Below, in pieces: positions 14,689-38,510 of a stretch of 64,000 nt of DNA. The stretch spans positions 1,054,001 to 1,118,000 of the forward strand of contig NZ_CP011427.1 in the NCBI RefSeq assembly GCF_001506165.1. The letters are read 5' to 3'. This stretch comes from Pantoea vagans. GTDB lineage: Bacteria > Pseudomonadota > Gammaproteobacteria > Enterobacterales > Enterobacteriaceae. Under the pieces are notes generated by a model, which had not been told where the DNA came from, made no database searches, and worked only from the letters and a program-made list of their open reading frames with translations. Made by a program: the position numbers and the translations under genes. The first letter of the stretch is position 1, and every line of letters starts with the position of its first letter.

Positions 14689-14830
14689 TTAATGACCTCC
14701 ACGCTGTTTTTTGGTTGCACGAATCCCTTGCCGTAGATGGCAATAAATCACTGAGGGATTCATAAAATTGGCTGGCAGGTTCTGCAAAACCTGCAGCCGG
14801 TTAACTCCACGCTATGAAAGGTATTGCGGT

Positions 14831-14951
14831 GCCGGGTGCCTCCCGGTGCTCTGGCTGAACTGACAAGCACCAGAGCGGTGACTTAGACTTGTAGCACCAA
14901 CTGACCGCATGAAAGTTGGTATCAGTTCACCGCGAGCGCATAGCCGCATTC
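14831..14951 (-). ncRNA. Structured RNA element, copy in the PL leader
   Basis: On the minus strand: GAAT, a weak first hairpin (GCG/CGC around GCTATGCGCT), a variable middle, the hairpin GCTCTGG (14876-14870) with CCAGAGC (14854-14848), one A (14847), and the hairpin CCGGG-AGGCA-CCCGG (14846-14832). The three copies at 23185-23527 have the same order, the same single-A spacing and an identical last hairpin, while the middle stem differs in sequence but still pairs. Confidence 0.7.
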
Positions 14952-14953
14952 AC

Positions 14954-15025
14954 CACAACGTTGAGAGCACTTAGTGCCTCTTATGGCGCGCCAGAGTACG
15001 CCCACCAAATGCTCTCAACGTTGTG
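14954..15025. repeat. Perfect 16-bp inverted repeat
   Basis: cacaacgttgagagca (14954-14969) and tgctctcaacgttgtg (15010-15025) are exact reverse complements separated by 40 nt. In the PL transcript this is the strongest hairpin of the leader. Confidence 0.9.
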
Positions 15026-15138: not shown

Positions 15139-15306
15139 TTAAAACGGACCCTTGGAGGGCATTTGTACTTCTTCCAGCTCAACACTCAGAACACCAGTAT
15201 CTGCATCACAGATCAGTTCAGCATTTGGGAAAAGCTTAAGAAACGTAATCAAATCCCCGATGCTTGTAGCCGCCATCTGCTTGACCATCATTGGCAATTT
15301 ACTCAC
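15139..15306 (-). CDS. Small first gene of the PL operon (55 aa)
   Basis: GTG at 15306 with GGAGG about 9 nt upstream opens a 55-codon frame: SKLPMMVKQMAATSIGDLIT..., ending TAA at 15139. A later in-frame ATG (15291) is also possible. It begins about 100 nt after PL. An 18-codon upstream frame overlaps its start and could couple translation. I do not recognise the protein; it is not obviously N-like (not arginine-rich). Confidence 0.55.
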   Translation of the reverse strand: MSKLPMMVKQMAATSIGDLITFLKLFPNAELICDADTGVLSVELEEVQMPSKGPF

Positions 15307-15502: not shown

Positions 15503-16162
15503 CTATAGGTTCTGAGTAACTTGAACAACCTTGCCAATTATTCGGCAATTTCCGTCTATCGATATCGGCTTAAACATGGGGTTCAAAGGCATCAGGTATG
15601 CGTTCGGGCTATCCCACACCAGCTTCTTAACCGTGGCTTCTGATGAGCCATCCAGAATGGCTACAACAATTTTCCCGTAAAGGTCGTCTATCTGCCCAAA
15701 GTTTGGTTCAACGATTACTACAGATCCCTCAGGTATTGAGGGCAGGCCGTTAGGGTTTGTCATCGACTCCCCTCTAACGATCAAGCCGAAAACTTCATCA
15801 GAAACATCACTGGTAGTATGGGTCCAACTCAACACGTCGCTCAACCTTGAACTTGCATAGCTATCCGTCCAAAGACCCGCCTGGACAGCAGAAATTATGG
15901 GCACACCAATTGGTTTTTTGATGTATGGGGCAATTTTAATGTCATCTTCCTGAGTGGCATCTTTCGAGTAAAGCAGCCATTCAGGACTGGTTTGTAAAAT
16001 CTTAGCCAACCTGTGGAGGTTTTCTCCGTCAGGTTTTGTAGTCCCGTTTTCCCATTTAGTGACTGATACGCGACTTATACCAAGCGCCTTTGCCAAAGCA
16101 TCTTGGGTCAGATTCAGCTGCAGCCTTCTAGATCTTATGCGGTCTTTCATCTCTGTTTTCAT
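15503..16162 (-). CDS. cI: CI-type phage repressor, LexA/S24 family
   Basis: A 219-residue repressor: N-terminal HTH (about 16-40, LTQDALAKALGISRVSVTKWE) and C-terminal S24 autoprotease domain with cleavage site Ala95-Gly96 (AVQAGLW), Ser133 (GESM) and Lys179/180 (ATVKKL). It should hold lysogeny and be cleaved in the SOS response. The ATG at 16162 directly abuts an operator and has no Shine-Dalgarno sequence, like the leaderless cI mRNA of lambda. Confidence 0.92.
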   Translation of the reverse strand: MKTEMKDRIRSRRLQLNLTQDALAKALGISRVSVTKWENGTTKPDGENLHRLAKILQTSPEWLLYSKDATQEDDIKIAPYIKKPIGVPIISAVQAGLWTDSYASSRLSDVLSWTHTTSDVSDEVFGLIVRGESMTNPNGLPSIPEGSVVIVEPNFGQIDDLYGKIVVAILDGSSEATVKKLVWDSPNAYLMPLNPMFKPISIDGNCRIIGKVVQVTQNL

Positions 16163-16233
16163 GTAACCAATGTTACCCAAAAGCAATGTAACTTTTGTTT
16201 GCTTTTGTGTGTACCTTTAGTTACCTTATTATC
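16163..16233. promoter_or_regulatory. OR region with PR and PRM
   Basis: Three operator-like words: gtaaccaatgttac (16163-16176), gtaacttttgtttg (16188-16201) and gtacctttagttac (16211-16224), spaced about 24 bp centre to centre as in a lambdoid OR. A rightward promoter fits TTGTGT, a 16-nt spacer and TATTAT around the third site (16205-16232), so CI binding there would block cro. The first site abuts the cI start and should serve autoregulation. Confidence 0.75.
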
Positions 16234-21415: not shown

Positions 21416-22416
21416 GGGCGATATTCACACCTGATGTTGCCATGAAGACCGGGATTGTGTTGCTAAAGCCCGGTCGCGAACTCATACCAATGTTTCGTGA
21501 ACGCGTCATGGTCTGCACAATTCCCCGTGACATGTCACACCTTCCAGCAGGCTTAATCAACGACAGCAGCCAGCCGCTACTGGATGAGCCAACCCTGAAA
21601 GACTTCTTCGCCGATAAGAAGGTGATCGCCGCTGCTGGTGGAATGGATGCACATGATGCGTGGGTGCAAAGAATTGGCACCTGCCAGTTTGAGAAAAAGG
21701 ATATTTATCACCATGCGCATTACACTACCCTGCGGACCGATTACGGGAGTCTCTGCCTGTGTTATTCCTGCGACAATTACTGTCGTTCTAACGGTCTACC
21801 TGGTATCCTGGAATCAGTAGCGGCAGGCAATCTGGCAAGGTGGATTATCGAGTCGGCATGCATCCAGATGGGGTTAGGTTCGGACCATCAGATGACGCTG
21901 CCAGAGTTGTGCTGGTGGGCCTGTCTGAATGGCGTAATCGACTTGATACCGGAGTCGCATGCCCGCCGCGTGCTGCGCATGCCACAGCTGATTGCCGATA
22001 CCGGGCCAATGCCTGAAGCGATGATTAACCCGGCACCCTCGGCGCAGGAGGTGATTCAGGAAGTGGCTGAGGTGGTTAAGCAGGTGCTGACCATAGGCAT
22101 CAACCCGGAATCGCCACAGTCATATATGGCGAGGCCAAAGCGGTTACGCTGGACCAATGAGAAGTACACGCGGTGGGTTAAAGCGCAGCCATGCGCATGC
22201 TGCAACAAGCCAGCAGACGACCCGCACCACATCATTGGGCACGGACAGGGAGGAATGGGAACGAAGGCGCATGATTTATTTGTGATACCGCTTTGCAGGG
22301 CGCATCACGATGAGCTGCACCGTGATCCAAAGGCATTCGAAGAAAAATATGGCAGTCAGTTAGAACTGCTTTTCAGGTTTCTCGATCACTCGATTGCAGT
22401 CGGCGTGGTTGGGTAA
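21412..22416 (+). CDS. DUF968-family HNH-like protein
   Basis: A 334-residue protein. The C-terminal DUF968 domain (about 225-330) carries CACCNKPADDPHHIIG, then PLCRAHHDELH, a Cys/His pattern like HNH nucleases. The N-terminal half is a phage-specific domain with several Cys and His residues. A recombination or nuclease role is likely but not shown. Confidence 0.82.
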   Translation: MRAIFTPDVAMKTGIVLLKPGRELIPMFRERVMVCTIPRDMSHLPAGLINDSSQPLLDEPTLKDFFADKKVIAAAGGMDAHDAWVQRIGTCQFEKKDIYHHAHYTTLRTDYGSLCLCYSCDNYCRSNGLPGILESVAAGNLARWIIESACIQMGLGSDHQMTLPELCWWACLNGVIDLIPESHARRVLRMPQLIADTGPMPEAMINPAPSAQEVIQEVAEVVKQVLTIGINPESPQSYMARPKRLRWTNEKYTRWVKAQPCACCNKPADDPHHIIGHGQGGMGTKAHDLFVIPLCRAHHDELHRDPKAFEEKYGSQLELLFRFLDHSIAVGVVG

Positions 22417-22439
22417 AATTAAAGCGTGGAGGAAAATAT

Positions 22440-22868
22440 ATGCGTGACATGTCACAGGTATTAGAACGCTGGGCGGGTTGGGCTCGCTCAGACCGTAGCG
22501 GCGTAGATTACTCACCAATCGCAGCAGGATTTAAAGGCTTGCTGCCACAGGATTCAAAGCTAACCCTGTCGTGCACTGATGACGATGGACTGGTTATTGA
22601 GTCATGCCTGGCTAAGCTACGCACCCGCCGCCCCGATGAGCACGAACTTATTGTGCTGCATTACTTCTACAATATCTCCAAACGCAAGCTGGCTCAGCGC
22701 GCTAAATGCGATGAGAAGATGATCCGTATTCAGGTCCAGATGGCTGAAGGCTTCCTTGAAGGCTGTCTTGCGTGGCTTGATGTTCGTCTCGAAATGGACC
22801 CTGAATTAGAGCCGAAAAAAATAACTCAAAAAACATTATCGCGGTCCGCAAAATCATTGGTAATGTGA
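22440..22868 (+). CDS. Q: Late antiterminator Q
   Basis: A 142-residue protein: VLERWAGWARSDRSGVDYSP at the start and an HTH-like LIVLHYFYNISKRKLAQRAK match the phage antitermination Q family. It stands at the end of the early operon, just before a terminator and the late genes, where Q should act on RNA polymerase at PR'. GGAGG precedes the ATG. Confidence 0.88.
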   Translation: MRDMSQVLERWAGWARSDRSGVDYSPIAAGFKGLLPQDSKLTLSCTDDDGLVIESCLAKLRTRRPDEHELIVLHYFYNISKRKLAQRAKCDEKMIRIQVQMAEGFLEGCLAWLDVRLEMDPELEPKKITQKTLSRSAKSLVM

Positions 22869-22937
22869 TAAGACTCGGTACTGTGATGTACTGCTTATCT
22901 TCAAGAATTCAGTTGCAAAAGCTGTGAATAATTAAAG

Positions 22938-22971
22938 CGCCCGGAGCCTCACCAGCTTACGGGCGTTTTTT
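22938..22971 (+). terminator. Terminator downstream of Q (tR'-like)
   Basis: CGCCCG (22938-22943) and CGGGCG (22960-22965) with a T-run. It lies between Q and the late genes, as tR' does, so Q would be needed to read through. A clear PR' promoter is not evident in 22869-22937. Confidence 0.75.
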
Positions 22972-22975
22972 ATTT

Positions 22976-23051
22976 GCGCCATTAGCTCAACGGATAGAGC
23001 ATCGGAGTTCTAATCCGCTGGTTCGGGGTTCGAATACCCGGTGGTGCACCA
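22976..23051 (+). tRNA. Prophage tRNA-Arg (anticodon UCU)
   Basis: A 76-nt cloverleaf with acceptor GCGCCAT/GTGGTGC, anticodon TCT, T-loop GTTCGAATA and encoded CCA (23049-23051). Position 32 is G and 27:43 is a T/C mismatch, unusual but tolerable. Decoding AGA/AGG would help phage genes rich in codons that are rare in the host. Stx phages carry arginine tRNAs at the same place after Q. Confidence 0.85.
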
Positions 23052-23184
23052 AATCTCAAAAATGCGCAGTTTTGCGATTACGTGAGATCAGCTTAACCCT
23101 GTGCTCGACGGGGCAAGAAACTATCGCGTAATGCGTCAGGGTTTATTATTTTTATCTTATGTTCTAGATTGTTATCAATGCGGT

Positions 23185-23281
23185 GAATCCCTCTATGCGA
23201 CGGGGTCAAATCTGAGCTATTCCAAGAGTTGTGAGCCGACATACCTGTTTCAGATGGCAGGTATACCGGGAGGCACCCGGC
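23185..23281 (+). ncRNA. Structured RNA element, late copy 1
   Basis: GAAT, a first hairpin around CTATGCGA (CCC...GGG), a variable middle, hairpin ATACCTG (23241-23247)/CAGGTAT (23258-23264), one A (23265), hairpin CCGGG-AGGCA-CCCGG (23266-23280). A decayed first hairpin (about 23096-23112) precedes it. Confidence 0.7.
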
Positions 23282-23307
23282 ACCGCAGACATTTTCAAAG
23301 TCGGAGC

Positions 23308-23398
23308 GAATCCCCCTAAGCGGCGGGGCATCAGCCAAGAACCAGCGCAAGTTTGCGGACGAAGGTGGCTGTACTTCGTTCACCGGGAGGCACCCGGC
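23308..23398 (+). ncRNA. Structured RNA element, late copy 2
   Basis: First hairpin CCCC-TAAGCGGC-GGGG (23313-23328); middle hairpin GGACGAAG (23357-23364)/CTTCGTTC (23374-23381), including one G-T pair; one A (23382); CCGGG-AGGCA-CCCGG (23383-23397). It starts 123 bp after copy 1. Confidence 0.7.
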
Positions 23399-23433
23399 GT
23401 TCCGGCAACCTGCTAATATGACAATGTTGCTAT

Positions 23434-23527
23434 GAATCCCCCTATGCGGAGGGGCGTCAGCTTTACTCCCAAGATCGGTCTCAAGCGGTAAGTATTGGCT
23501 GGTACTTATCACCGGGAGGCACCCGGC
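23434..23527 (+). ncRNA. Structured RNA element, late copy 3
   Basis: First hairpin CCCCT-ATGCGG-AGGGG (23439-23454); middle hairpin GGTAAGTA (23487-23494)/TACTTATC (23503-23510); one A (23511); CCGGG-AGGCA-CCCGG (23512-23526). It starts 126 bp after copy 2. A terminator follows at 23556. Confidence 0.7.
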
Positions 23528-23555
23528 ATAGCAATTCCAAATTCACGTATATAAG

Positions 23556-23578
23556 GGCTCGCTTCGGCGAGCCTTTTT
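23556..23578 (+). terminator. Terminator after the RNA array
   Basis: GGCTCGC-TTCG-GCGAGCC with five T. The UUCG tetraloop makes it very stable. It separates the tRNA/RNA array from the lysis genes, so lysis depends on Q read-through. Confidence 0.9.
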
Positions 23579-23687
23579 CGTTTTTGCGCCCGCCAATCAC
23601 TGCAAACCACGCTTACTTTAAGCTGTGGCGGAGCGCAATTTCATTTAAGAGACCATAGACAGCACCTGCCAACTACTGGAGGTGAGG

Positions 23688-24050
23688 ATGAAGCGCATGC
23701 CAGACAAAGATCCAGGCTTATGGGCAAGCCTGCTTGCATGGCTGTACGCCCACAAAAACGAATCAGGTTATGCAGCTCTAGCTGGAGTGATGGCCATACT
23801 ACGCGCCACTTACATCGGCAAAGACACATGGCCAAGACGTTTGCTTGATGCGGCAATGTGCAGCCTCTTCGCATTCTTTCTCCAGCCAACGCTGCAGGTG
23901 CTTGGTTCTGTCTTCAACTGGAATTTCAGCGAGGGCACAACGCAGGTTGCGGCTGTGTTCCTTGGATTTCTCGGCGTTGACTGGCTTTCATCAAAGCTGC
24001 GCCGGTTCATTGATAAGCGCATAGGGGATGGCAATGCTGACACCCAGTAA
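23688..24050 (+). CDS. Lambda-family holin with dual start
   Basis: About 120 residues with three hydrophobic segments (about 20-40, 48-68, 80-95) and a charged C-terminus, the lambda S plan. It begins MKRMPDKD, with a second Met three codons later (ATG 23688 and 23697), like the S107/S105 antiholin/holin pair of lambda. GGAGG lies just upstream. Confidence 0.85.
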   Translation: MKRMPDKDPGLWASLLAWLYAHKNESGYAALAGVMAILRATYIGKDTWPRRLLDAAMCSLFAFFLQPTLQVLGSVFNWNFSEGTTQVAAVFLGFLGVDWLSSKLRRFIDKRIGDGNADTQ

Positions 24051-24666
24051 TTTTCAGAAGGCTACTGGCGTAACTGATGCCCAGCGTGATACGTGGTTTC
24101 CGCGCATCTCAGCCAGCATGGCAGCATTTGGCATCACCACGGCATTACGTAAGGCTCACTTTCTGGCTCAGGTTGGTCATGAATCGGCAGGATTTACTAA
24201 AACCGAGGAAGGACTCAATTACAGCGAGAACGCGCTCACCGCGATGTTTGGCAGGCGCATTACTGCGGCGCAGGCTAATGCCTATGGACGCAACACCGCG
24301 CACCCGGCAAACCAGAAGATGATTGCTAACTTCATTTACGCCAACCGCAATGGTAATGGTGATGTGGCTTCGGGTGATGGATACCGTTATCGCGGTCGCG
24401 GTCTTATCCAGATCACGGGCAGAGCAAACTACGCGGCGCTGGCCGGGCAGTTAAGCGCTGATGTGGTGGCGAACCCTGATTTGCTGAAAGAACCGATGCA
24501 GGCCGCAATGTCAGCGGCGGCATGGTGGAAGAATCACGGATTAAACGAACTGGCTGACACTGATGATGTTACCCGCATCACCAGAGTTATTAACGGTGGA
24601 ACTAACGGCCTGGACGACAGGATCACCCGCTTACTCAAAGCTAAGGGGATTCTATGCTCAACGTAA
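24034..24666 (+). CDS. Endolysin, glycoside hydrolase family 19
   Basis: A 210-residue chitinase-like lysozyme. HFLAQVGHESAGF contains the catalytic Glu and GDGYRYRGRGLIQITG is the GH19 signature, with a conserved end (VTRITRVINGG). It cuts peptidoglycan after holin action. ATG 24034 was preferred over 24028 because AGGGGA is well spaced. It overlaps the holin and Rz genes. Confidence 0.92.
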   Translation: MLTPSNFQKATGVTDAQRDTWFPRISASMAAFGITTALRKAHFLAQVGHESAGFTKTEEGLNYSENALTAMFGRRITAAQANAYGRNTAHPANQKMIANFIYANRNGNGDVASGDGYRYRGRGLIQITGRANYAALAGQLSADVVANPDLLKEPMQAAMSAAAWWKNHGLNELADTDDVTRITRVINGGTNGLDDRITRLLKAKGILCST

Positions 24667-25127
24667 TCGGCTTTATCCGAAACTATTCACACGTCATTTT
24701 CATTGGCCTTATCTGCGTCTGCCTTTGGGGGCTTAACGCCCGTAACTCACAGCTGACCGCGACAAACGACCGGCTGGAAAAGTTATCAAACAGTAAAGAC
24801 GACCAGATAAACGACCTTCGCTCTAAAAACGATGACCTGGCTTCCAGCGTTAACGACCTCGTTACAGCGGTAAAGAAGCAAAACGAAGTGATGGGGCAGG
24901 TAGCAGACCAGCGAGCGGTAACAGCAGAGCAGAACCGGAAACTCCAGAATGAAATCAAGCAATACCTTGCGGCTGATAAAAACGCTGCCGCTCCTGTTCC
25001 TGCTGATGCTGTTAAGCGGTTGCGAGACGCAGCGAAGTCAGCAAGTGGAGTACAGGACGATAAAGCAGCCCCGGTTAAATCTTCCAGCGGAACTGACCAG
25101 CCCGATAAAGGCACCGGAGCCCGCTAG
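24654..25127 (+). CDS. Inner-membrane spanin Rz
   Basis: A 157-residue protein: one N-terminal membrane helix (about 10-29) and a long periplasmic coiled coil rich in Asn, Asp, Gln and Lys. It overlaps the endolysin end and contains the rz1 gene in another frame, the standard Rz/Rz1 layout. Confidence 0.88.
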   Translation: MLNVIGFIRNYSHVIFIGLICVCLWGLNARNSQLTATNDRLEKLSNSKDDQINDLRSKNDDLASSVNDLVTAVKKQNEVMGQVADQRAVTAEQNRKLQNEIKQYLAADKNAAAPVPADAVKRLRDAAKSASGVQDDKAAPVKSSSGTDQPDKGTGAR

Positions 25128-25236
25128 CGCGATGAGTTATGGCGATTCGGTTGAGTTGAACGTGGTGCTATATGGGTTGGTTGAGCAGTGCAATATTGAT
25201 AGGGCTGCAGTTCGGAAAATCGAAGGGAACAGATAG
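24949..25236 (+). CDS. Outer-membrane spanin lipoprotein Rz1
   Basis: A 95-residue lipoprotein read in another frame inside and past Rz. Signal peptide LPLLFLLMLLSGC with the lipobox LSGC. It pairs with Rz to fuse inner and outer membranes at lysis. It is longer than lambda Rz1 because it extends about 110 nt past the Rz stop. Confidence 0.85.
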   Translation: MKSSNTLRLIKTLPLLFLLMLLSGCETQRSQQVEYRTIKQPRLNLPAELTSPIKAPEPASAMSYGDSVELNVVLYGLVEQCNIDRAAVRKIEGNR

Positions 25237-25325
25237 AATAAGTATGCTGTAAAAACTTAAAAAGTGCTTCAATAACATCCACGTTGGCTGTAATTTGGTT
25301 GTTTTCATTTTAGAGGTATTCAACC

Positions 25326-25685
25326 ATGAAACTAGTGGGTATTGATAAGTTGCTGAGCAGTACGGAGAATGGATTGGCCCAACGGTATCTAGTTTTAGAC
25401 TATGTACCTAATAATTATTGGGCAGATATGTTTTTAAAGTTACACAAAAATTCAATCTCTCCAGAGAAGCGAGAGGTTTCCCTAAGAGGTAAATATGTCA
25501 TCGTTGAATGCCTTGTTGAAGAAATTCAGGGGCAGGTCAACTTCCTGAATAAATTATGTGAGGAAGCTGAAATACAGCTCATTAAAGCGCATGATCAGGA
25601 ACAAAAAGCTAAACAAGCTAAAGGTAGGTTAGAGGAAGAAAATAGAATCCTAGCTTTAGAGGCTTTCGAAAAGCTGAAATTCTGA
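25326..25685 (+). CDS. AT-rich accessory gene (moron candidate)
   Basis: A 119-residue protein I do not recognise, with a helical, charged C-terminus likely to form a coiled coil (EQKAKQAKGRLEEENRILAL). It has lower GC than its neighbours, its own upstream spacer and its own terminator, features of a moron inserted between the lysis and packaging modules. Confidence 0.6.
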   Translation: MKLVGIDKLLSSTENGLAQRYLVLDYVPNNYWADMFLKLHKNSISPEKREVSLRGKYVIVECLVEEIQGQVNFLNKLCEEAEIQLIKAHDQEQKAKQAKGRLEEENRILALEAFEKLKF

Positions 25686-25691
25686 TGACTG

Positions 25692-25715
25692 AACCGCCTA
25701 AAGGCGGTTTTTTAA
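25692..25715 (+). terminator. Terminator of the accessory gene
   Basis: AACCGCC (25692-25698) and GGCGGTT (25703-25709) followed by T-rich sequence. Confidence 0.88.
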
Positions 25716-25816
25716 TTTTGAAGTTTAATGCGCTATCAAAATAAACAACTTACTGATGGTTGATGACTTTATTTTTGTAAAACAGTTTTATTCGATCTTC
25801 ACCGAGGAACTTTCAA

Positions 25817-26155
25817 ATGGCTGAACCGCGCATATATAACAGTCGGTGGGATAAGGCCAGGCTTTCATTTCTCAGGTCGCACCCTATCTGCGTAATGTGT
25901 CACCGACAGGGCCGCGCGGTTGCCGCCACTGTGGTCGACCACATCAAACCTCACCGTTTGAAAGAGGCGCTCAACGGTGGCAAGCAGGAGGAGGTTGTTA
26001 AGGCTCAGAAGCTGTTCTGGGACAAAGGCAACTGGCAGCCATTGTGCAAGCAGCATCATGATTCAACGAAGCAGCGTGAAGAGAAGCGTGGGCATGTCAT
26101 CGGGTGCGATGAGAATGGCATGCCTCTTGACCCGTCATCCCACTGGCACAAATGA
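25817..26155 (+). CDS. HNH endonuclease of the packaging module
   Basis: A 112-residue HNH protein: CVMCHRQG, VVDHIKPHR (His-Asp-His) and NWQPLCKQHHDSTK. HNH proteins directly before terminase genes in HK97-type phages assist terminase cutting at cos. That role is from known families. Confidence 0.9.
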   Translation: MAEPRIYNSRWDKARLSFLRSHPICVMCHRQGRAVAATVVDHIKPHRLKEALNGGKQEEVVKAQKLFWDKGNWQPLCKQHHDSTKQREEKRGHVIGCDENGMPLDPSSHWHK

Positions 26156-26204
26156 TAATCAATATCGTTTGAATGAAGGTGGCACAAAAATGGTGCAAAA
26201 ATTT

Positions 26205-26276
26205 AACATCAGACGGAGGAGGGGCGGGGTAAATGTTCAGGGTACATCGCCTTCCTGACCGCCCGCCCCCCTTTTT
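26205..26276. other. Candidate cos region
   Basis: The HNH-terS gap contains GGGGCGGG (about 26220-26228) and CCCGCCCC (about 26262-26270), which can pair, with a T-run after. Cohesive-end sites of HK97-type phages lie between the HNH and terS genes, but I cannot identify the nick positions; the pairing could also be a terminator. Confidence 0.3.
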
Positions 26277-26319
26277 ATGCACAACCGCGAAATGAAAAGT
26301 TTTTTTCTGGGAGGTTTTT

Positions 26320-26787
26320 ATGGCCGGAAGACGACCAAAACCTACCCATCTGAAAGTTGTTACAGGGAATCCCGGCAAGCGCGCGCTCAATAAAAAAGAG
26401 CCGAAGCCCGCCCGGGAAATTCCAAGCCCTCCATCACATCTGACCGACTGGGGTAAAACAGCCTGGGGAAAGCTCACCGTTCTGCTGGACGGGATGGGCG
26501 TGCTCACGGTTGCGGATACACTTGCGCTCGAACGGCTCTGCGATCTTTATGCAGAAATTCTGCAATTGCGCCAGATAGTCGATATCGAAGGGCGCACCTA
26601 TACGACTAAAACCCAGATGGGTGATTTTTTGATTAAAGCAAACCCGGCTGTCGCCATGCTGGCGGATGTGGATCGCCGGTTCAAAAGTTATCTGGTGGAG
26701 TTCGGCCTTACACCGGCTGCCCGGTCAAAGGTAAATGCTGATGGTGGAGAAAAAGAAGAAGACCCGCTCAACCAGTTCTTCGGTTGA
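26320..26787 (+). CDS. Terminase small subunit, P27 family
   Basis: A 155-residue protein beginning MAGRRPKPTHLKVVTGNPGK, typical of P27-type TerS, which recognises the packaging site. GGGAGG is upstream. The end overlaps TerL by about 50 nt. Confidence 0.92.
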   Translation: MAGRRPKPTHLKVVTGNPGKRALNKKEPKPAREIPSPPSHLTDWGKTAWGKLTVLLDGMGVLTVADTLALERLCDLYAEILQLRQIVDIEGRTYTTKTQMGDFLIKANPAVAMLADVDRRFKSYLVEFGLTPAARSKVNADGGEKEEDPLNQFFG

Positions 26788-28486
26788 TCCAGCTACACAA
26801 TATGCCATGGACGTTACCAGCGGCTCAGTCATAGCGGGCCCGGATATTCGCGCTGCATGCGCACGGCACCTTCGGGATTTAGAAGAAGGGCCTGAGCGCG
26901 GACTGTTTTGGGATGTTGAAGCCGTCACTCGCGTCGTTAATTTCTTCGCTCAGGTTCTGAAGCTTAACGGCGGTGAGCATGAGGGAAAACCGTTTATCCT
27001 GCTGCCATGGCAGTGTTTCATTGTGGGTTCTCTCTTTGGCTGGAAAGCGGAGGACGGCACGCGCCGCTTTCGCATGAGCTACATAGAATCAGGTAAGGGT
27101 TCAGGCAAGTCGCCTCTTGCTGGCGGTGTTGGCCTTTACCTTCTGATGGCAGACAAGGAGCCACGCGCCGAAGTATATGCGGCGGCCACAAAAAAAGACC
27201 AGGCGATGATCCTGTTTCGCGATGCGGTAACGATGGTCGATCAGTCGCCCGCGCTGGCGCAGCGCATCACCAAATCCGGCACCGGGCTGAATGTTTGGAA
27301 TCTCGCGTTCTTGCAGACAGGCTCTTTCTTCAAACCGATCAGCTCCGATGATGGTCAGTCAGGCCCGCGCCCTCACGGCGCGTTGATCGACGAGGTCCAT
27401 GAGCACAAAACAAACGCCGTTGTTGAGATGATGCGCGCCGGGACCAAGGGCCGTCGTCAGGCTCTGATGTTCCTCATCACCAACAGTGGCCACGATAAGA
27501 CCAGCGTCTGTTATGAGTATCACGAGTACGGTCGCAAGGTTGCAGCCGGTGACCTCGTTGATGACAGCTTTTTCAGCTTCATCTGTTCGCTGGATGAGGG
27601 CGACGACCCGTTCAAAGATGAATCCTGCTGGGGGAAAGCTAACCCCTCACTGGGGCAAACATTCACGGATAAATATCTGCGTGAGCAGGTGACGCAGGCG
27701 CGCGGAATGCCTTCGAAAGAGAGCATCGTGCGCCGCCTTAACTTCTGTCAGTGGGTGGAAGCGTCCGATCCTTGGATTGACAGCGACACCTGGATGAACT
27801 GCGAACAGGACTTTGATCCCGCAGATTTGGCGGGAGAAGAGTGTTACGGGGGGCTGGACCTGTCAGGTTCTCGTGACCTGACGGCACTGGCGCTTTACTT
27901 CCCGAAATCCAAAAAGCTTTTAGTCGAATTCTGGACCCCTAAAGACTCACTGCTTGAGCGCGCCAAAACGGACCATGTTCCCTATGACGCCTGGTTGCGT
28001 AACGGCTTCATCCATGCACCACCGGGGAAGGCGGTTAACTACGGCTTTGTAGCGGTACGAATTGGAGAGTTGGCGGCCAGATATGACATTAAGTGCATCG
28101 CGTTTGACCAGTATCGCATTAAGTATCTGGAGCCCGAACTCGAAAGCGAGTCTGTGAGCGTTGACCTTGTTCCGCACGGTCAGGGCTTTTATAAGGCCCA
28201 GGAATCCGGACTCTGGATGCCGCGCTCTATCGAGTTGTTTGAGGAACACCTCAATAACCGGGTTCTAGTTATACGGCCTAATCCCTGCCTGCGCTGGAAC
28301 GCTGCCTCTGCAGTGCTTGAGGCAGATCAGAAGGACAACCGTATCTTTGCCAAAAAGAAAAGCACTGGTCGAATTGATGGCGTGGTGGCGTCTGCAATGG
28401 CAATCGGTGCGGCTGAGGATGCAGTGCTGGTAGACAGTGGCGACCCCGATGACTTTTTTGACGACCCGATTATGGTAGGTATCTGA
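26735..28486 (+). CDS. Terminase large subunit
   Basis: A 583-residue packaging motor. Walker A ESGKGSGKS (about 118-126) and Walker B GALIDEVHEH form the ATPase, and the C-terminal half holds the nuclease (Asp-rich stretches GLDLSGSRDL and AFDQYRIKYL). The Met two codons later (26741) could be the true start. Confidence 0.95.
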   Translation: MLMVEKKKKTRSTSSSVDPATQYAMDVTSGSVIAGPDIRAACARHLRDLEEGPERGLFWDVEAVTRVVNFFAQVLKLNGGEHEGKPFILLPWQCFIVGSLFGWKAEDGTRRFRMSYIESGKGSGKSPLAGGVGLYLLMADKEPRAEVYAAATKKDQAMILFRDAVTMVDQSPALAQRITKSGTGLNVWNLAFLQTGSFFKPISSDDGQSGPRPHGALIDEVHEHKTNAVVEMMRAGTKGRRQALMFLITNSGHDKTSVCYEYHEYGRKVAAGDLVDDSFFSFICSLDEGDDPFKDESCWGKANPSLGQTFTDKYLREQVTQARGMPSKESIVRRLNFCQWVEASDPWIDSDTWMNCEQDFDPADLAGEECYGGLDLSGSRDLTALALYFPKSKKLLVEFWTPKDSLLERAKTDHVPYDAWLRNGFIHAPPGKAVNYGFVAVRIGELAARYDIKCIAFDQYRIKYLEPELESESVSVDLVPHGQGFYKAQESGLWMPRSIELFEEHLNNRVLVIRPNPCLRWNAASAVLEADQKDNRIFAKKKSTGRIDGVVASAMAIGAAEDAVLVDSGDPDDFFDDPIMVGI

Positions 28487-29790
28487 TGAAGCAAAAGAAA
28501 CAGCCGGGCCGCATTAAAAGCGCGATTGTTAACTGGCTTGGCGAGTCCATTGGGCTTAACGATGCTGCTTTCTGGCAGGAATGGTACGGCACCAGTAGTA
28601 GCGGAAAAGTAGTGACAGCTGAGAAAGCGCTGGCGCTGGCTTCAGTCTGGGCATGTGTTCGACTACTCAGTGAGTCGGTTTCAACCCTACCCATGAAGGT
28701 TTATGAACGCGCTGCCGATGGTTCCCGCAAGCTTGCTCTGAATCATCCGGCCTATCAGCTGCTTTGCCGCCGCCCAAACAGTGAAATGACACCGTCACGA
28801 TTTATGCTGATGGTGGTTGCCAGTATCTGTCTGCGGGGCAACGCCTACGTTGAGAAAAAGATGATAGGCACCAAGCTGGTTTCGCTTGTTCCACTTCTTC
28901 CACAGAGTATGAAGGTAGAACGCCTCGACAGCGGTGAGCTGCAATATACCTACACCGAAAAAGGCATACCCCGCATCATTCCTGTAAAGAACATGATGCA
29001 TATTCGTGGTTTCGGGCTAGATGGCGTCTGCGGGATGATGCCGATGCGCACCGGGCGTGATGTGTTCGGGGCGGCAATGGCGGTAGAAGAATCCGCTGCC
29101 AAGATTTTTGAAAACGGTATTCAGACTTCCGGCTTCTTCCTCTCGAAGAACCTGCTGACAAAAGAGCAACGCCAAAAGAACCGTGAAAACCTTAACCGGT
29201 TCGTTGGTTCAAAAAATGCCGGAAAGGTGATGGTGCTGGAGGGCGATATGTCCTATCAGGGTATTACGCTGAACCCTGAAGACGCTCAGATGCTTGAATC
29301 ACGCTCGTTCAGCATTGAAGAAATCTGCCGCTGGTTCCGTGTTCCGCCATTTATGGTGGGCCACGTTGATAAACAAAGCAGTTGGGCTTCAAGTGTAGAG
29401 GGCATGAACCTGCTGTTCCTGACCAACACGCTGCGCCCGATGCTGGTTAACATTGAGCAGGAAATTTCACGCTGCCTGCTTAACGGCGATGAAGATTTGT
29501 TTGCTGAGTTCTCCGTTGAGGGGCTGTTACGCGCCGACAGCGCCGGACGTTCCGCCTATTACACTACAGCACTTCAGAACGGCTGGATGTCACGTAATGA
29601 CGTTCGTCGCCTTGAGAATCTGCCACCAATTGAAGGCGGTGATATCTACACCGTGCAACTGAACCTTACCCCGCTTGAGGATTTGCGCAAAAACAGCATT
29701 GAAGCAAGGGCTACGTTGTTGCGCGAAGTTCACAATGCCGTTTTCCCGGACATTCCTTTAGAACAGTCACCGCTTAAACAAGCGGCTTAG
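28486..29790 (+). CDS. HK97-type portal protein
   Basis: A 434-residue portal: ALALASVWACVRLLSESVST, then FSIEEICRWFRVPPFMVGH, both characteristic of the family. It forms the ring at one head vertex through which DNA enters. It overlaps the TerL end. Confidence 0.95.
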   Translation: MKQKKQPGRIKSAIVNWLGESIGLNDAAFWQEWYGTSSSGKVVTAEKALALASVWACVRLLSESVSTLPMKVYERAADGSRKLALNHPAYQLLCRRPNSEMTPSRFMLMVVASICLRGNAYVEKKMIGTKLVSLVPLLPQSMKVERLDSGELQYTYTEKGIPRIIPVKNMMHIRGFGLDGVCGMMPMRTGRDVFGAAMAVEESAAKIFENGIQTSGFFLSKNLLTKEQRQKNRENLNRFVGSKNAGKVMVLEGDMSYQGITLNPEDAQMLESRSFSIEEICRWFRVPPFMVGHVDKQSSWASSVEGMNLLFLTNTLRPMLVNIEQEISRCLLNGDEDLFAEFSVEGLLRADSAGRSAYYTTALQNGWMSRNDVRRLENLPPIEGGDIYTVQLNLTPLEDLRKNSIEARATLLREVHNAVFPDIPLEQSPLKQAA

Positions 29791-29801
29791 GAGCAACCCC
29801 C

Positions 29802-30650
29802 ATGACATTGAAAAGTCTTCCGGCAGCGCCGGAGGGGCGGCCTTTTGCGCGCGAAAATCGCGATCTGCCGTCCTCCGCAATGGAACGCTGGAACGGCGGT
29901 ATTAAAGCCGCGAAGCAGGCAGACAACAGCATTTCCGTGTTCGACGTCATTGGCGCTGACTGGTACGGCGATGGAGTTACCGCCAGCCGCATTGCTGCTG
30001 CCCTCCGGTCAATCGGCGGCGCTGATGTGACCGTGAATATCAATTCGCCCGGCGGAGATATGTTTGAAGGCCTGGCAATTTATAACCTGCTGCGCGAGTA
30101 CGAGGGAAAAGTCACCGTCAAGGTGCTGGGCCTCGCTGCTTCTGCTGCTTCGATCATCGCGATGGCCGGTGATGAGGTCCAGATTGGTCGCGGTGCCTTC
30201 CTGATGATCCATAACTGCTGGGTGTATGCGATGGGCAACCGTCACGACCTGCAGCAGATTGCGGCTGACATGGTGCCTTTTGATAAAGCCATGAACGATA
30301 TTTACGGCGCTCGCACGGGGCTGGATACCGCCACTATCGACGCAATGATGGACGCAGAAACTTACATCGGCGGCAGTGATGCTGTTGATAAGGGATTTGC
30401 GGATCGTCTTCTTTCTGCAGATGAAATTGCGGATGACGACGACAGCCCCGCAGCTGCATTACGCAAACTGGACGCGATGCTGGCTAAAACCGATGCACCC
30501 CGTTCCGAACGTCGAAAACTTCTCAAAGCACTAACCGGCAGCAAGCCAGGCGCTGCTGCCACCCCTGAAGGTATGCCGGGCGCTACCGACGAAATCAACC
30601 CTGAAAGTATTGAACAACTTCAAAACGCGCTGGCCGCGTTCGGCAAATAA
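29802..30650 (+). CDS. Prohead protease, ClpP (S14)-like
   Basis: A 282-residue protein. NINSPGGDMFEGLAIYNLL, LGLAASAASIIAMAGD with the catalytic Ser, and FLMIHNCW with the catalytic His show the ClpP fold. It cleaves the scaffold region of the major capsid protein. It is followed 9 nt later by the capsid gene. Confidence 0.93.
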   Translation: MTLKSLPAAPEGRPFARENRDLPSSAMERWNGGIKAAKQADNSISVFDVIGADWYGDGVTASRIAAALRSIGGADVTVNINSPGGDMFEGLAIYNLLREYEGKVTVKVLGLAASAASIIAMAGDEVQIGRGAFLMIHNCWVYAMGNRHDLQQIAADMVPFDKAMNDIYGARTGLDTATIDAMMDAETYIGGSDAVDKGFADRLLSADEIADDDDSPAAALRKLDAMLAKTDAPRSERRKLLKALTGSKPGAAATPEGMPGATDEINPESIEQLQNALAAFGK

Positions 30651-30659
30651 GGAATCATC

Positions 30660-31871
30660 ATGTCAGATGTAAATGAGTTACTTAAGAAAGTATCTGCAAA
30701 GCTTGAAGAGGTTTCAGGCACCTTCAGCGCGAAGGCTGAAGATGCGCTTAAGGAAGCAAAGAACTCTGGTCAGTTGTCAGCCCAGACAAAAGAGGCGGTC
30801 GATAAAATCGCCACTGAATTTAACGCTCTTAACGAGGCGAATAAAACGCTGAAAGCATCACTCGGTGAGCTGGAACAGCACGTCGCACAGATGCCGATGA
30901 ACCACGCGGCCAAAGTTGTTGAAACCGTGGGTCGTCAGGTCGTCTCATCTGAAGCGCTTAAAGCCTTCACCGCTGGCGTTGAAGGTAATAAACGCATCAG
31001 TATTCCAGTTAATGCAGCGCTGGTTTCAGTCGATGTTCCTGGTCAAATCGTTGCGCCTGATCGCCTTCCTGGTATCGACACCCAGCCAAAGCAGCGCCTG
31101 TTTATTCGTGATTTGATTGCGCCGGGCCGTACGGCTTCCAACACCATTTACTGGGTGCAGCAGACCGGTTTCACCAACAAAGCCGCTGCCGTTGCTGAAA
31201 ATACGACCAAGCCGTACAGCGACATTGCGTTTGCTGAGAAGATCACGCCAGTTCGCACGATCGCTCACCTGTTTAAGGCGGCCAAGCAGATTCTGGATGA
31301 TATGCCGCAACTGCAGTCAACGATTGATGCAGAGCTGCGCTACGGTCTGAAGTACGTTGAGGAGCAGGAAATTCTGTTTGGTGACGGTACCGGTGCCCAT
31401 CTCGAAGGTATCGTTCCGCAGGCTTCAGATTTTGCCGCTGCATTTACAGTCGAAAGTCAGAATGGTATTGACGATCTGCGCCTGGCCATGCTTCAGGCTC
31501 AACTGGCGAGATTCCCGGCTTCGGGTCACGTCCTGCATTTCATCGACTGGGCCAAGATTGAATTGACCAAAGACACGCTGGGTCGCTATATCCTGGCGAA
31601 TCCTGCGGCGCTGACAGGGCCAACCCTCTGGGGTCTTCCTGTCGTGGCTACCGAAGCGGCTGCATTCCAGGGCAAATTCCTGACAGGCGCATTTAATGCC
31701 GGTGCACAAATCTTTGATCGTGAAGATGCCAACGTCGTTATCTCCACCGAAAACGCCGACGACTTTGAGAAAAACATGATCTCAATCCGTTGTGAAGAGC
31801 GTCTCGCTTTGGCGGTTAAACGTCCTGAAGCATTCATCTACGGTACCTTCACCGTTCCTGCAGCCAGCTAA
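30660..31871 (+). CDS. HK97-type major capsid protein
   Basis: A 403-residue protein with an N-terminal helical delta/scaffold domain (about 1-105, a coiled coil to be removed by the protease) and the HK97 fold (TASNTIYWVQQTGFTNKAAA, PVRTIAHLFKAAKQIL). Confidence 0.93.
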   Translation: MSDVNELLKKVSAKLEEVSGTFSAKAEDALKEAKNSGQLSAQTKEAVDKIATEFNALNEANKTLKASLGELEQHVAQMPMNHAAKVVETVGRQVVSSEALKAFTAGVEGNKRISIPVNAALVSVDVPGQIVAPDRLPGIDTQPKQRLFIRDLIAPGRTASNTIYWVQQTGFTNKAAAVAENTTKPYSDIAFAEKITPVRTIAHLFKAAKQILDDMPQLQSTIDAELRYGLKYVEEQEILFGDGTGAHLEGIVPQASDFAAAFTVESQNGIDDLRLAMLQAQLARFPASGHVLHFIDWAKIELTKDTLGRYILANPAALTGPTLWGLPVVATEAAAFQGKFLTGAFNAGAQIFDREDANVVISTENADDFEKNMISIRCEERLALAVKRPEAFIYGTFTVPAAS

Positions 31872-31877
31872 CTAATC

Positions 31878-31897
31878 AGGCGGCCTGAGTGCCGCCT
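31878..31897 (+). terminator. Weak terminator after the capsid gene
   Basis: AGGCGGC and GCCGCCT around a 6-nt loop with a short T-run. It may reduce transcription beyond the highly expressed capsid gene. Confidence 0.5.
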
Positions 31898-31914
31898 TTA
31901 TCAGGGGTACGTTC

Positions 31915-32418
31915 ATGAAACTGATTCTGTTAAAGCCGAATTACTTTAATGGTGTGGTCGTAACTGAAGGTCAAACTATTGAAACGACTGAGCAACACGG
32001 TCGTGAACTCATCAAGCTTAAATATGCCCGTTCAGTCGATGATGACGGCGATGCAGAAGCAAAGGCTAAAGCCGATGCTGAAGCGCAAGCCAAAGCAGAA
32101 GCCGAAGCACAGGCTAATGCCGAGGCTGAAGCCAAAGCGAAGGCTGAAGAAGATGCTCAGGCTAAAGCCGATGCTGAAGCGCAAGCCAAAGCAGAAGCCG
32201 AAGCACAGGCTAATGCCGAGGCTGAAGCCAAAGCGAAGGCTGAAGAAGATGCTCAGGCTAAAGCCGATGCTGAAGCGCAAGCCAAAGCAGAAGCCGAAGC
32301 ACAGGCTAATGCCGAGGCTGAAGCCAAAGCGAAGGCTGAAGAAGATGCTCAGGCTAAAGCCGCTGCTGAAGCGCAAGCCAAAGCAGATGCCGAAGCAAAG
32401 GAAAAAGCTAAAAAATAA
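31915..32418 (+). CDS. Ala/Glu-rich repeat protein of the head module
   Basis: A 167-residue protein. The first about 40 residues form a small folded-looking domain (LILLKPNYFNGVVVTEGQ). The rest is an Ala/Glu/Lys helix of 32-residue repeats encoded by identical 96-bp DNA repeats. Its position between the capsid gene and the connector genes suggests a head or connector accessory protein. Confidence 0.7.
   Translation: MKLILLKPNYFNGVVVTEGQTIETTEQHGRELIKLKYARSVDDDGDAEAKAKADAEAQAKAEAEAQANAEAEAKAKAEEDAQAKADAEAQAKAEAEAQANAEAEAKAKAEEDAQAKADAEAQAKAEAEAQANAEAEAKAKAEEDAQAKAAAEAQAKADAEAKEKAKK
32065..32352. repeat. Three identical 96-bp tandem repeats
   Basis: Units at 32065-32160, 32161-32256 and 32257-32352 appear identical base for base; a diverging partial unit follows at 32353. 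Each encodes 32 residues, keeping the frame. Identity implies recent expansion, so copy number may vary. Confidence 0.9.
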
Positions 32419-32427
32419 GGCGTGGTC

Positions 32428-32757
32428 ATGCTGCTGACGCTCGAAGAAATCAAATTGCAGTGCCGCCTGGAAAGCGATTTCACTGCAGAGGATCAGCTTC
32501 TTGAGCTTTTTGCTCTGGCTGCTGAAGCGAAGGCGGTGACCTACCTCAACCGCAACCTCTATAAAACAATTGCCGACATTGCCCCACTTGATACTGACGG
32601 CATTGTGATCACCGAAGATATTCGACTTGCTCTGCTAATGCTGGTAAGTCACTGGTACGAACACCGCAGTTCTGTGTCGGAACTGGAAATGACAGAGACG
32701 CCTCAGGCGTTTGAGTTTCTCCTCTATTCACGCCGCCTGCCCGTGTCGGGGTACTGA
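32428..32757 (+). CDS. Head-tail connector, gp6-like
   Basis: A 109-residue helical protein beginning MLLTLEEIKLQCRLESDFTA, matching HK97 gp6-type connector proteins below the portal. Followed 1 nt later by the next gene. Confidence 0.82.
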   Translation: MLLTLEEIKLQCRLESDFTAEDQLLELFALAAEAKAVTYLNRNLYKTIADIAPLDTDGIVITEDIRLALLMLVSHWYEHRSSVSELEMTETPQAFEFLLYSRRLPVSGY

Positions 32758-32758
32758 T

Positions 32759-33148
32759 ATGCAGTTACGGTCATCTAATACCAGCGCGGTATTCACGCTG
32801 CCCGATCCCGGTGAACTGAATAAGCGCATTCACTTACGGCAGCGCATAGACCAGGCGGCAGCCGATTATGGCGTACAGCCGGTTTATCAGAATGAAAATG
32901 ACGTGTGGGCAAAGGTCCGGCAGGTCGGGGCCACAACCTATCACGAATCCATTCAGGCTGATGACATCATTACCCATTACATCACGATCCGCTTTCGTCA
33001 GGGCATCACTTCCGACTTTGAAGTGGTTTATGGCGGCAATATTTACCGGGTTAAGCGCCTTCGCGATCTTAACTCGGCTGGCCGTTATCTGCTGATGGAA
33101 TGCGAGGAGCTGGGCGCGGTAGAGCGCGATGGAGAGATGTATGGCTAA
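32759..33148 (+). CDS. Head closure protein
   Basis: A 129-residue protein (LPDPGELNKRIHLRQRID, then DVWAKVRQV, YRVKRLRDLN) of the SPP1 gp16/HK97 gp7 head-closure type that seals the connector. Overlaps the next gene by 8 nt. Confidence 0.82.
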   Translation: MQLRSSNTSAVFTLPDPGELNKRIHLRQRIDQAAADYGVQPVYQNENDVWAKVRQVGATTYHESIQADDIITHYITIRFRQGITSDFEVVYGGNIYRVKRLRDLNSAGRYLLMECEELGAVERDGEMYG

Positions 33149-33647
33149 GCCGCTGCTGCACGTCGATTTCGACCAACCGAAAGAGCTCGTTTTTAACCGC
33201 GCCAAGATGCGCAAGGCCTTTGTGAAAATAGGCCAGGTGCATATGCGCGATGCCCGCCGGATGGTGATGCGTCGCGGTCGTTCTTCTCCGGGGGAAAGTC
33301 CGGGATATCGCACTGGCAGACTGGCGCGCTCAATTGGTTATTACGTACCCCGGGCATCTAAAAACCGTCCTGGACTGATGGTGCGCATTGCCCCAAACCA
33401 GAAGCGGGGCGAAGGCAACCGCCTTATTGAAGGGGATTTCTATCCTGCTTTCCTGTTCTATGGCGTCCGGCGTGGCGCAAAACGCGGTAAAAGCCATCAT
33501 AAAGGCAAGTCTGGTGGCAACGGCTGGCGTATTGCGCCACGTAAAAACTATATGGCGGAAGTGCTTGAATCCCGCAAGAGCTGGACGCGTTATGTCCTCA
33601 GCAGGGCGTTGCGCACCTCCCTCCGGCCAGAAAGGAAAAAGAAATGA
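33141..33647 (+). CDS. HK97 gp10-type neck protein
   Basis: A 168-residue basic protein (DARRMVMRRGRSSPGESPGY and a Lys/Arg-rich end) resembling HK97 gp10-like neck/connector proteins. Start at 33141 from overlap and frame. Confidence 0.72.
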   Translation: MAKPLLHVDFDQPKELVFNRAKMRKAFVKIGQVHMRDARRMVMRRGRSSPGESPGYRTGRLARSIGYYVPRASKNRPGLMVRIAPNQKRGEGNRLIEGDFYPAFLFYGVRRGAKRGKSHHKGKSGGNGWRIAPRKNYMAEVLESRKSWTRYVLSRALRTSLRPERKKK

Positions 33648-34204
33648 AGCTCTCTCTTGTGATAGCTGCCCTTCGCGCAAGGTGTCCACGCTTTGCGGGC
33701 AACGTAGCAGGTGCGGCGGAATTTAAAGCCATTCCTGAAACCGGGAAAATGAAACTTCCGGCGGCTTACGTGGTGCCGACTGAGGACATTACCGCCGAGC
33801 AAAAGTCACTGACCGACTACTGGCAGAACGTCACTGAAGGGTTTGCAGTTGTCGTTGTACTGGACAACACCCGTGACGAGCGCGGTCAGGCATCAGGCTA
33901 TGACGCGGTACATGATGTGCGGGGTGAAATCTGGAAGGCGCTGCTGGGCTGGGAGCCGGATGAAGACGCGGGTCCAGTAGCATACTCGGGTGGCCAGCTT
34001 CTGGATATGGACAGAGGCCGCCTCTATTACCAGTTTGAGTTCATGCTCACACGTGAAATTACTGGTGAGATGACGCGCCAGCAGGACGATCTCAACGCCC
34101 TGGATGAATTCAGTGAAATTGATGTCGATGTGGATTTCATAGGCAAAGACCAGAAACCAGACGGCATCATCGAACATAAACTTCGGGTCAACCTCAGCGA
34201 GTAA
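33644..34204 (+). CDS. Tail terminator-like protein
   Basis: A 186-residue protein (PAAYVVPTEDITAEQKS, LYYQFEFMLTREITGE) like the Gp37/tail-completion proteins before DUF2635 and the sheath gene in Mu-type tails. It should cap the tail tube. Assignment rests on pattern and position. Confidence 0.7.
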   Translation: MKLSLVIAALRARCPRFAGNVAGAAEFKAIPETGKMKLPAAYVVPTEDITAEQKSLTDYWQNVTEGFAVVVVLDNTRDERGQASGYDAVHDVRGEIWKALLGWEPDEDAGPVAYSGGQLLDMDRGRLYYQFEFMLTREITGEMTRQQDDLNALDEFSEIDVDVDFIGKDQKPDGIIEHKLRVNLSE

Positions 34205-34207
34205 CCA

Positions 34208-38488: not shown

Positions 38489-38510
38489 CCCGCTCCGGCG
38501 GGTTTTTTAT
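38487..38510 (+). terminator. Intrinsic terminator inside the tail operon
   Basis: AACCCGC-TCCG-GCGGGTT followed by a T-run, right after the tape measure stop and before the next tail gene in the same operon. Genes beyond it need read-through, presumably by Q-modified polymerase. Confidence 0.8.

Follow-up and report, generated by a model that had tools for sequence, protein, structure and literature searches.

The window analysed here, a stretch of 64,000 nucleotides from Pantoea vagans, encodes an integrase, a repressor, a terminase and a major head protein (assigned through PHROGs) beside its Q and lysis genes, and it therefore carries a prophage, residing in a host genome of 4.31 Mb. PHROGs also identify Q at locus L009 of the collection described below. 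Directly after the major head protein gene, it also contains an ORF of 167 aa (31915–32418, plus strand) that is mostly made up of Ala/Glu/Lys/Gln/Asp-rich repeats. The region of interest, 23173–23539, lies between the phage Q and tRNA-Arg genes on one side and the holin gene on the other. Its features are given below, where R1 denotes the covariance model that we used with cmsearch, describing a multi-helix unit of 118 positions, and RF02076 is the Rfam family STnc100 (gathering score 47 bits).

22440–22868 (+): phage late antiterminator Q (PHROG 79 'anti-termination protein Q-like', E 1.8e-39)
22937–22975 (+): terminator-like hairpin plus T run just after Q (tR'-like), by reading; its loop is too long for the terminator scan
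22976–23051 (+): tRNA-Arg, anticodon tct (ARAGORN, Rfam)
23173–23293 (+): STnc100-type unit 1; R1 85.0 bits, E 5.4e-23; RF02076 50.1 bits (match at 23148–23337)
23296–23410 (+): STnc100-type unit 2; R1 89.5 bits; RF02076 55.4 bits in the scan of its own whole genome, absent from the list of the window scan
23422–23539 (+): STnc100-type unit 3; R1 92.2 bits; RF02076 79.8 bits (match at 23405–23585)
23179–23185/23281–23287, 23302–23308/23398–23404 and 23427–23434/23527–23534 (+): outer closing stems (P1), by reading; counted in the covariation test
23241–23264 (+): variable hairpin P4 of unit 1 (ATACCTG/CAGGTAT), by reading; helix covariation
23357–23381 (+): variable hairpin P4 of unit 2 (GGACGAAG/CTTCGTTC), by reading; helix covariation
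23487–23510 (+): variable hairpin P4 of unit 3 (GGTAAGTA/TACTTATC), by reading; helix covariation
23266–23280 (+): conserved hairpin P5 of unit 1 (15-base hairpin motif search)
23383–23397 (+): conserved hairpin P5 of unit 2 (same search)
23512–23526 (+): conserved hairpin P5 of unit 3 (same search)
23553–23576 (+): intrinsic terminator ending the array (terminator scan)
23682–24050 (+): holin (PHROG 126 holin/anti-holin, E 1.7e-30)
24028–24666 (+): endolysin (PHROG 181 endolysin, E 3.8e-81)

A sequence-only reading of this DNA had described three head-to-tail copies, and their spacing is readily reproduced: GAATCC... recurs at 23185, 23308 and 23434 (123 and 126 nt apart), and ACCGGGAGGCACCCGG at 23265, 23382 and 23511 (117 and 129 nt apart). 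That description also holds for the variable stem of each copy, for the one A and for the last hairpin, which is identical in all three, and the shared 15-base hairpin, with up to two mismatches, occurs four times in the window against 0.17 expected, a number that none of 100 shuffles reaches. The first hairpin (P2) exists as well, but its register had to be corrected: it is better drawn with a bulge (C-C-C-.-C-C / G-G-.-G-G-G), as judged from lineages with a 6-bp form, this helix having 6 bp in some lineages and 5 bp plus a bulge in most. Moreover, the outer stem that closes each copy had been overlooked. The terminator noted after the array is present, as one of three terminator-like sites in 22800–23700, where chance would give 1.0. 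The 'decayed first hairpin' before the array, however, does not qualify as a further copy, as cmsearch finds no match there at E ≤ 1; the fourth copy in the window sits elsewhere, on the minus strand at 14819–14963. Scans located no promoter at the array, the only promoter-like site being on the other strand, where chance expects 1.1, and no terminator between the copies. Copies 1 and 2 are thus devoid of a terminator of their own and, unless they are processed, of an obvious Hfq site.

Assignment of the array to STnc100

The copies do represent a real structured-RNA family, as had been proposed, yet not an unnamed one, since all three pass the gathering score of RF02076. The array units belong to STnc100, a prophage sRNA in Rfam, so this is no new family. 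Its Rfam consensus already includes the outer stem, P2, P4 and P5, with copies 1 and 3 aligned to the model, and R1 recovers these consensus helices in all three copies; the 3' terminator hairpin of the STnc100 model is matched in copy 3, and for copy 1 it is aligned with P2 of copy 2. The array resembles STnc100 in its score, in these four helices, in its prophage location and in the terminator after the last copy, whereas it differs in having three tandem copies with one shared terminator. A weak Rfam match elsewhere in the same genome (C1:808616–808773, 29 bits) is not confirmed by R1, the main text of PMC2515195 does not contain the name STnc100, and a nucleotide search with the whole array gave no match in phage or E. 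coli collections, from which records of or near the window's genome were possibly excluded.

Several other identities were considered and rejected. ARAGORN and Rfam together find two tRNAs in the window (9396–9470 and 22976–23051), none within the array, and no reading frame is kept open across 98 representative units (antisense frames are open in 24, 3 and 28 of them, sense frames in 18, 25 and 15), the lengths of which fall in all three classes modulo 3. Neither of the two outcomes that the sequence-only reading had itself held against its proposal, a lack of covariation or membership in a coding or tRNA-like family, thus occurred. By homology, the units are neither a CsrB/RsmX sponge (rsmX scores 23.1 bits against a cut-off of 56, and no such family reaches its gathering score) nor a put-like antiterminator (no R1 match in HK022 22000–40751); antitermination as a mechanism is taken up below. 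A type III toxin-antitoxin RNA was dismissed as well: the next genes encode holin and endolysin, no antitoxin RNA family reaches its gathering score, and istR scores 19.4 bits against 45. The anti-sRNAs AgvB and AsxR (RF02702 and RF02703, as numbered in the available part of PMC13192938) have no match in the window at gathering score.

Relatives of the array have been described in E. coli and Salmonella, and the following is taken from excerpts of the papers cited. Strain EDL933 has 11 STnc100 loci with RNA-seq reads, one of them confirmed by Northern blot (PMC5331693), and LT2 carries multi-copy STnc100 with RpoD and RpoN binding (PMC10794520). The Hfq-binding EcOnc27 / sRNA103 of E. coli O157:H7, located just downstream of stx2B, partly overlaps STnc100, and its overexpression is reported to raise fimZ and espA transcripts (PMC12711010); Hfq binding of EcOnc27 is also reported in PMC4104026. 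Likewise, a locus in our collection that derives from an Stx phage and has other genes in place of stx (L283) has a unit after them. EcOnc27 is, however, a single copy with reported Hfq binding. PasD, an sRNA found by Hfq RIL-seq, is said to share structure with STnc100, and PasD1 and PasD2 of EPEC, which we liken to the array by their description, also have Q as a neighbour; in contrast to the array they are not tandem, and PasA/PasD copies likely arose via superinfection rather than tandem duplication (PMC13192938). Convergent sRNAs lie 3' of PR', and AgvB and AsxR occupy the same moron site after PR' (PMC4104026), but these are 51–60 nt long, and AsxR is antisense to stx2AB. Finally, sequence features in the stx2-linked copy are associated with clinical outcome (PMC12711010, in the part available), which makes the structure of STnc100 worth having right.

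Fold of the unit and its predicted pseudoknot

Units were collected by motif from the window's own genome, from its relatives and from two collection scans (at least 120 stretches each). At least 368 units were kept, at least 247 of them distinct, the motif step having removed matches with fewer than four outer-stem pairs or without AAT. As the motif demands P5, this hairpin looks invariant by construction; matches of the Rfam model and of R1 include P5 variants. R1 was run on 100 of the at least 120 genome loci listed, and the motif alone on 20 genome loci and on the viral loci L041–L160 and L012–L040.

From the 98 representatives, 76 were in the length range, 60 of these were listed and 42 diverse units were taken into an alignment, A1. 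In its four helices, 96.1% of the cells are paired, compared to 82.2% in shuffled and 40–49% in slid alignments; both sides change in 18 of 25 pairs (9.5 in shuffles), and the covariation score is 0.422 (0.147 in shuffles). None of 500 shuffles attains any of five observed values, so that the selection on RNA pairing proposed in the sequence-only reading is supported. P5 is nearly invariant in A1, with four of its five stem pairs never varying, which is in part due to the motif requiring it. The folding energy of the entire segment 23140–23590 does not stand out from that of shuffled sequences (z −1.16; 15 of 100 equal or surpass it), so that the case for structure rests on covariation and not on stability. 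What covariation shows for each copy is a predicted closed multi-helix RNA, composed of the outer stem P1, P2, a variable linker, P4, one A and the conserved P5. A conserved hairpin P3 in the linker was not supported as a general feature (mean z −0.37; z < −1 in 24 of 93).

The bases that directly follow P2 can pair with the P4 loop. Across the 94 of 98 representatives that were parsed, the mean longest Watson-Crick run is 5.43 bp, compared to 3.50 (sd 0.10) after permutation of the loops among units, with a maximum of 3.79 in 300 permutations; the next linker segment gives 2.98 (93 units), reversed loops give 3.5, and another form of the test, on 109 representatives, gives 5.30 against 3.68. 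In these 94 representatives, 57 different strands of at least five bases are in use. At least five Watson-Crick pairs are found in 66 units, four in 23 and three or fewer in five, and units of the latter two groups are singly no better than chance. In a second alignment, A7, composed of 26 units that were chosen by eye for one pseudoknot register, 89.7% of the cells are paired (75.6% shuffled, 14–46% slid) and both sides change in five of six pairs, a number reached by 12 of 500 shuffles; given that its units were picked by eye, this test is biased, and the permutation test on the 94 representatives is the fairer one. Together, the comparisons show a covarying, family-wide pairing that we interpret as a pseudoknot between the post-P2 strand and the P4 loop. 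Such a fold alters which bases may be called a seed. In the window, its strands are as follows.

23210–23215 (+): pseudoknot strand ATCTGA of unit 1, pairing with P4 loop TCAGAT at 23250–23255; by reading, 6 bp in the pairing test
23332–23337 (+): pseudoknot strand CAGCCA of unit 2, pairing with P4 loop TGGCTG at 23366–23371; by reading, 6 bp in the pairing test
23458–23461 (+): pseudoknot strand CAGC of unit 3, pairing with P4 loop GCTG at 23498–23501; only 4 bp, alone not above chance

The consensus line that cmscan prints for STnc100 shows no such pairing, and a covariance model cannot hold a pseudoknot. The word 'pseudoknot' is absent from the available text of the STnc100-related papers PMC13192938, PMC12711010, PMC5471319 and PMC5331693, and the part of PMC12370729 at hand uses it for other RNAs. 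The word 'tandem' is absent from the available text of PMC12711010, PMC5331693 and PMC12370729; in that of PMC13192938, it appears only in one reference title and in two statements denying tandem duplication for the PasA/PasD copies, or calling it unlikely. As far as the literature searched shows, the pseudoknot, the tandem form and the second unit type described below are new.

Arrays, distribution and genomic contexts

Tandem arrays recur in the family, with two to seven units. By the strict motif, the matches listed form 208 distinct groups: 174 single units, 23 pairs, six triplets and five quadruplets, so that 34 of the 208 have two to four units. Their pitch clusters at 116–130 nt, as in the window, and at 250–268 nt (others range from 150 to 783), the shorter pitch leaving little room between units; spacers of 100–199 nt contain a terminator in 14 of 19 cases among the matches listed. 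Locus L288 has seven R1 units within 1.3 kb together with a terminator, and a second Q locus of the window's own genome (Q by PHROG 753) has six. To the array at this second locus, the segment 23265–23601 of the window, comprising copies 2 and 3 and the terminator, is 94.7% identical over 338 nt. The match begins precisely with the A that precedes P5 in copy 1, and this break in homology suggests recombination at P5. Natural arrays of this kind amount to a ready dose series.

A second unit type (class II), sought with one loose motif, gave 14 matches, six of them distinct (L009:11743–11864, minus strand; L281:5028–5167; L214:5328–5464; L288:632–756, minus strand; L152; L014; those in L009 and L014 are near-identical). 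Its P2 loop is UAGU or UAGC, and its P5 has about 4 bp with the loop UARCG. A terminator-like hairpin directly follows the unit in all six distinct examples (by eye), and the complementary pseudoknot strand is kept in L009, L210, L214, L281 and L288 (by reading). One class II unit is found in Fels-1 and one at the second Q locus of the window's own genome, and none in the window array.

In the window's family, R1 finds units in 41 of 246 genomes and 28 of 154 genera; in 143 genomes drawn from the class, it has no match except in G000. With the Rfam model, matches occur in 33 of 99 relatives, all from the window's own genus, and in none of 39 genomes from other families of the order. The titles of 80 of the at least 120 genome loci in the collection scans name Enterobacteriaceae and near relatives, with the exception of L218, a metagenome bin labelled Bryobacteraceae that may be contamination; an STnc100-labelled element is also listed in Shewanella in the available part of PMC5471319. 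With a single E. coli-type unit as query, blastn matches 3268 of 5426 complete E. coli genomes at E ≤ 1e-3, which makes the RNA very common; matches covering at least 80% of the unit occur in 2779 of the 5426, at up to 12 places in one genome. At a permissive E-value limit of 10, the same unit matches 118 of 50,697 phage records, among them Fels-1, mEp460_ev081 and an Stx-phage derivative, and 39 of these matches cover at least 80% of the query.

Counted unit by unit and without deduplication, 149 of the 336 units listed are preceded by a Q relative on their own strand within 7 kb and 186 are followed by a lysis or esterase marker, both being true of 114; for most of the remainder, the context is limited by the ends of the loci, many of which end within 3 kb. 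Units outside the Q region lie, for instance, in a phage tail operon that we read as P2-like (L094), among tail genes (L110) and at umuC/SRAP (L220). A terminator follows the last unit in 68 of 136 deduplicated cases among the matches listed, at a median distance of 28 nt, and no terminator was detected for the other half; control positions give 21/147 (upstream), 14/136 (antisense) and 1/141 (far downstream). A tRNA-like gene with an abnormal anticodon loop, for which ARAGORN gives no amino acid and the anticodon 'ctaa' or 'ta', occurs among the units at L009:11967–12039 (−), L204:5214–5286 (−), L210:2239–2311 (+), L216:5680–5752 (−) and L291–L293, some of these loci being records of the same phage type.

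Furthermore, units recur at two places in host chromosomes, one ahead of kdgM and the other behind a peptidase M3 gene. In all 15 loci listed with a KdgM relative (73–100% protein identity to that of L183), the unit lies 74–272 nt upstream of the gene on the same strand, without a terminator in between in 13 of 15, and a conserved block lies upstream in nine of ten that were aligned. These loci, with KdgM-type porins, are L183, L185, L252, L191, L169, L194, L274, L259, L264, L248, L200, L180, L242, L249 and L213, and the titles shown include Kosakonia, Klebsiella, Enterobacter and Intestinirhabdus. At seven of 11 peptidase M3 loci listed (L265, L243, L272, L195, L167, L269 and L268), the unit lies 76–123 nt after the gene on the same strand, followed by a terminator in six of the seven; at the other four, the distance is 308–3562 nt.

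The fourth unit of the window occupies yet another position, close to the repressor gene:

14819–14963 (−): fourth STnc100-type unit; R1 65.7 bits, Rfam only 29 bits, under the cut-off; in the leader of a probable early-left (pL) operon
15503–16186 (−): repressor (PHROG 4)

The early-left location is probable, as judged by eye from repeated GTAACTAAAGGTAC sites; a promoter scan found no promoter at this position, and the pR region of the window has no R1 match. By reading, the unit has the pseudoknot strands GAACTGA/TCAGTTC. A relative of the small ORF at 15139–15306 adjoins six units, including this one (the ORF of the window being the query), and four of these six early-left-type units are also near a cI relative. 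The ORF itself (55 aa, minus strand) has no PHROG match; its tblastn relatives lie beside early-left-type units in five other loci. We also noted a perfect 14-base inverted repeat on the minus strand (CAACGTTGAGAGCA at 15023–15010 and TGCTCTCAACGTTG at 14969–14956), which overlaps the unit's 5' end and could form at the expense of its outer stem.

Possible functions of the units

Our preferred reading, tentative and held with not quite even confidence, is that the units are trans-acting small RNAs made from the late transcript, whose arrays raise dose and variety. The copies of the array would be transcribed together in a Q-dependent late transcript, with a main 3' end presumably at the terminator 23553–23576, and the early-left copy in a pL transcript. 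The folded units may then act in trans, with RNAs of the host or the phage as targets and probably together with Hfq, as has been reported for the E. coli relatives EcOnc27 and PasD. In such a unit, the pseudoknot and the outer stem could form a scaffold that presents the conserved P2 loop, the GC before P4, and P5, while the variable linker would be the free part, so that targets could differ from copy to copy; tandem copies might arise via recombination at the conserved hairpins and thereby add dose and variety. We prefer action in trans to action in cis because the units stand in unrelated contexts (after Q, in an early-left leader, at umuC/SRAP, in a tail operon, 3' of peptidase M3), often with a terminator, and because relatives are reported to be expressed, to bind Hfq and to be related to PasD.

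The units upstream of kdgM, with their constant orientation and mostly uninterrupted path into the gene, argue against trans action and fit a cis-acting leader. They raise the rather unlikely but serious alternative that the unit acts on the transcript to which it belongs, be it as a leader subject to regulation, by antitermination, by stabilising the RNA or as a site of processing. The conserved block upstream of the kdgM units and the unit in the probable early-left leader, with the same small-ORF neighbour in five other loci, agree with this, and HK022 put, a phage RNA structure, also adjoins pL. However, put is only about 70 nt long with two stem-loops, is also found by pR and acts on RNA polymerase in cis (PMC9378689, as far as available), whereas our unit is a 118-position multi-helix RNA with one copy by the probable pL, none by pR and no R1 match in the HK022 region searched. 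Moreover, Q is already present, an antiterminator just upstream of a conserved terminator (68/136) would be self-defeating, and units 3' of peptidase M3 or of moron genes are not leaders of those genes; a cis element fits the leaders, above all those of kdgM, but not the terminators.

Base pairing with targets could draw only on the linker or on loops that open up. Most of the conserved positions are located in stems and closed loops, a distribution that suits a protein ligand no less than a base-pairing seed, and the conservation of the P2 loop and P5 is better explained by a protein ligand. CsrB soaks up CsrA, and tandem pseudoknot antitoxin RNAs soak up type III toxins. Likewise, each unit could fold into a ligand that binds one RNA-binding protein or nuclease, of host or phage origin, which tandem copies would soak up. 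This explanation, unlikely in our view but a serious rival as well, draws on the conserved P5 and P2 beside freely varying helices, on the pseudoknot, on the arrays at a pitch of 116–130 nt and on the seven units of L288. Against it, the conservation of P5 is partly forced by the search motif, the neighbourhoods examined contain no partner gene that constantly accompanies the unit, most groups are single (174/208, among the matches listed), and the CsrB/RsmX and antitoxin RNA families all stay below their cut-offs. A wider conjecture, which in its full form is doubtful, would make STnc100 the founder of a class of ligand RNAs with a pseudoknot rather than an ordinary base-pairing sRNA. Phages of Enterobacteriaceae would deploy it singly or in tandem arrays of two to seven, host chromosomes would have taken it over before kdgM and after peptidase M3, and the same hairpin would be shown to one host factor, with the terminator-proximal class II unit as a companion and array length setting the dose.

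As for the break in homology with the second Q locus exactly at P5, it would also suit a non-functional scar, i.e. DNA conserved at a phage recombination site and kept by exchange. We regard this as highly improbable because of the covariation: compensatory changes in P1, P2, P4 and the pseudoknot require selection on RNA. Nor does it agree with the conserved chromosomal positions before kdgM and after peptidase M3, or with the expression reported for E. coli in the available parts of PMC5331693 and PMC12711010.
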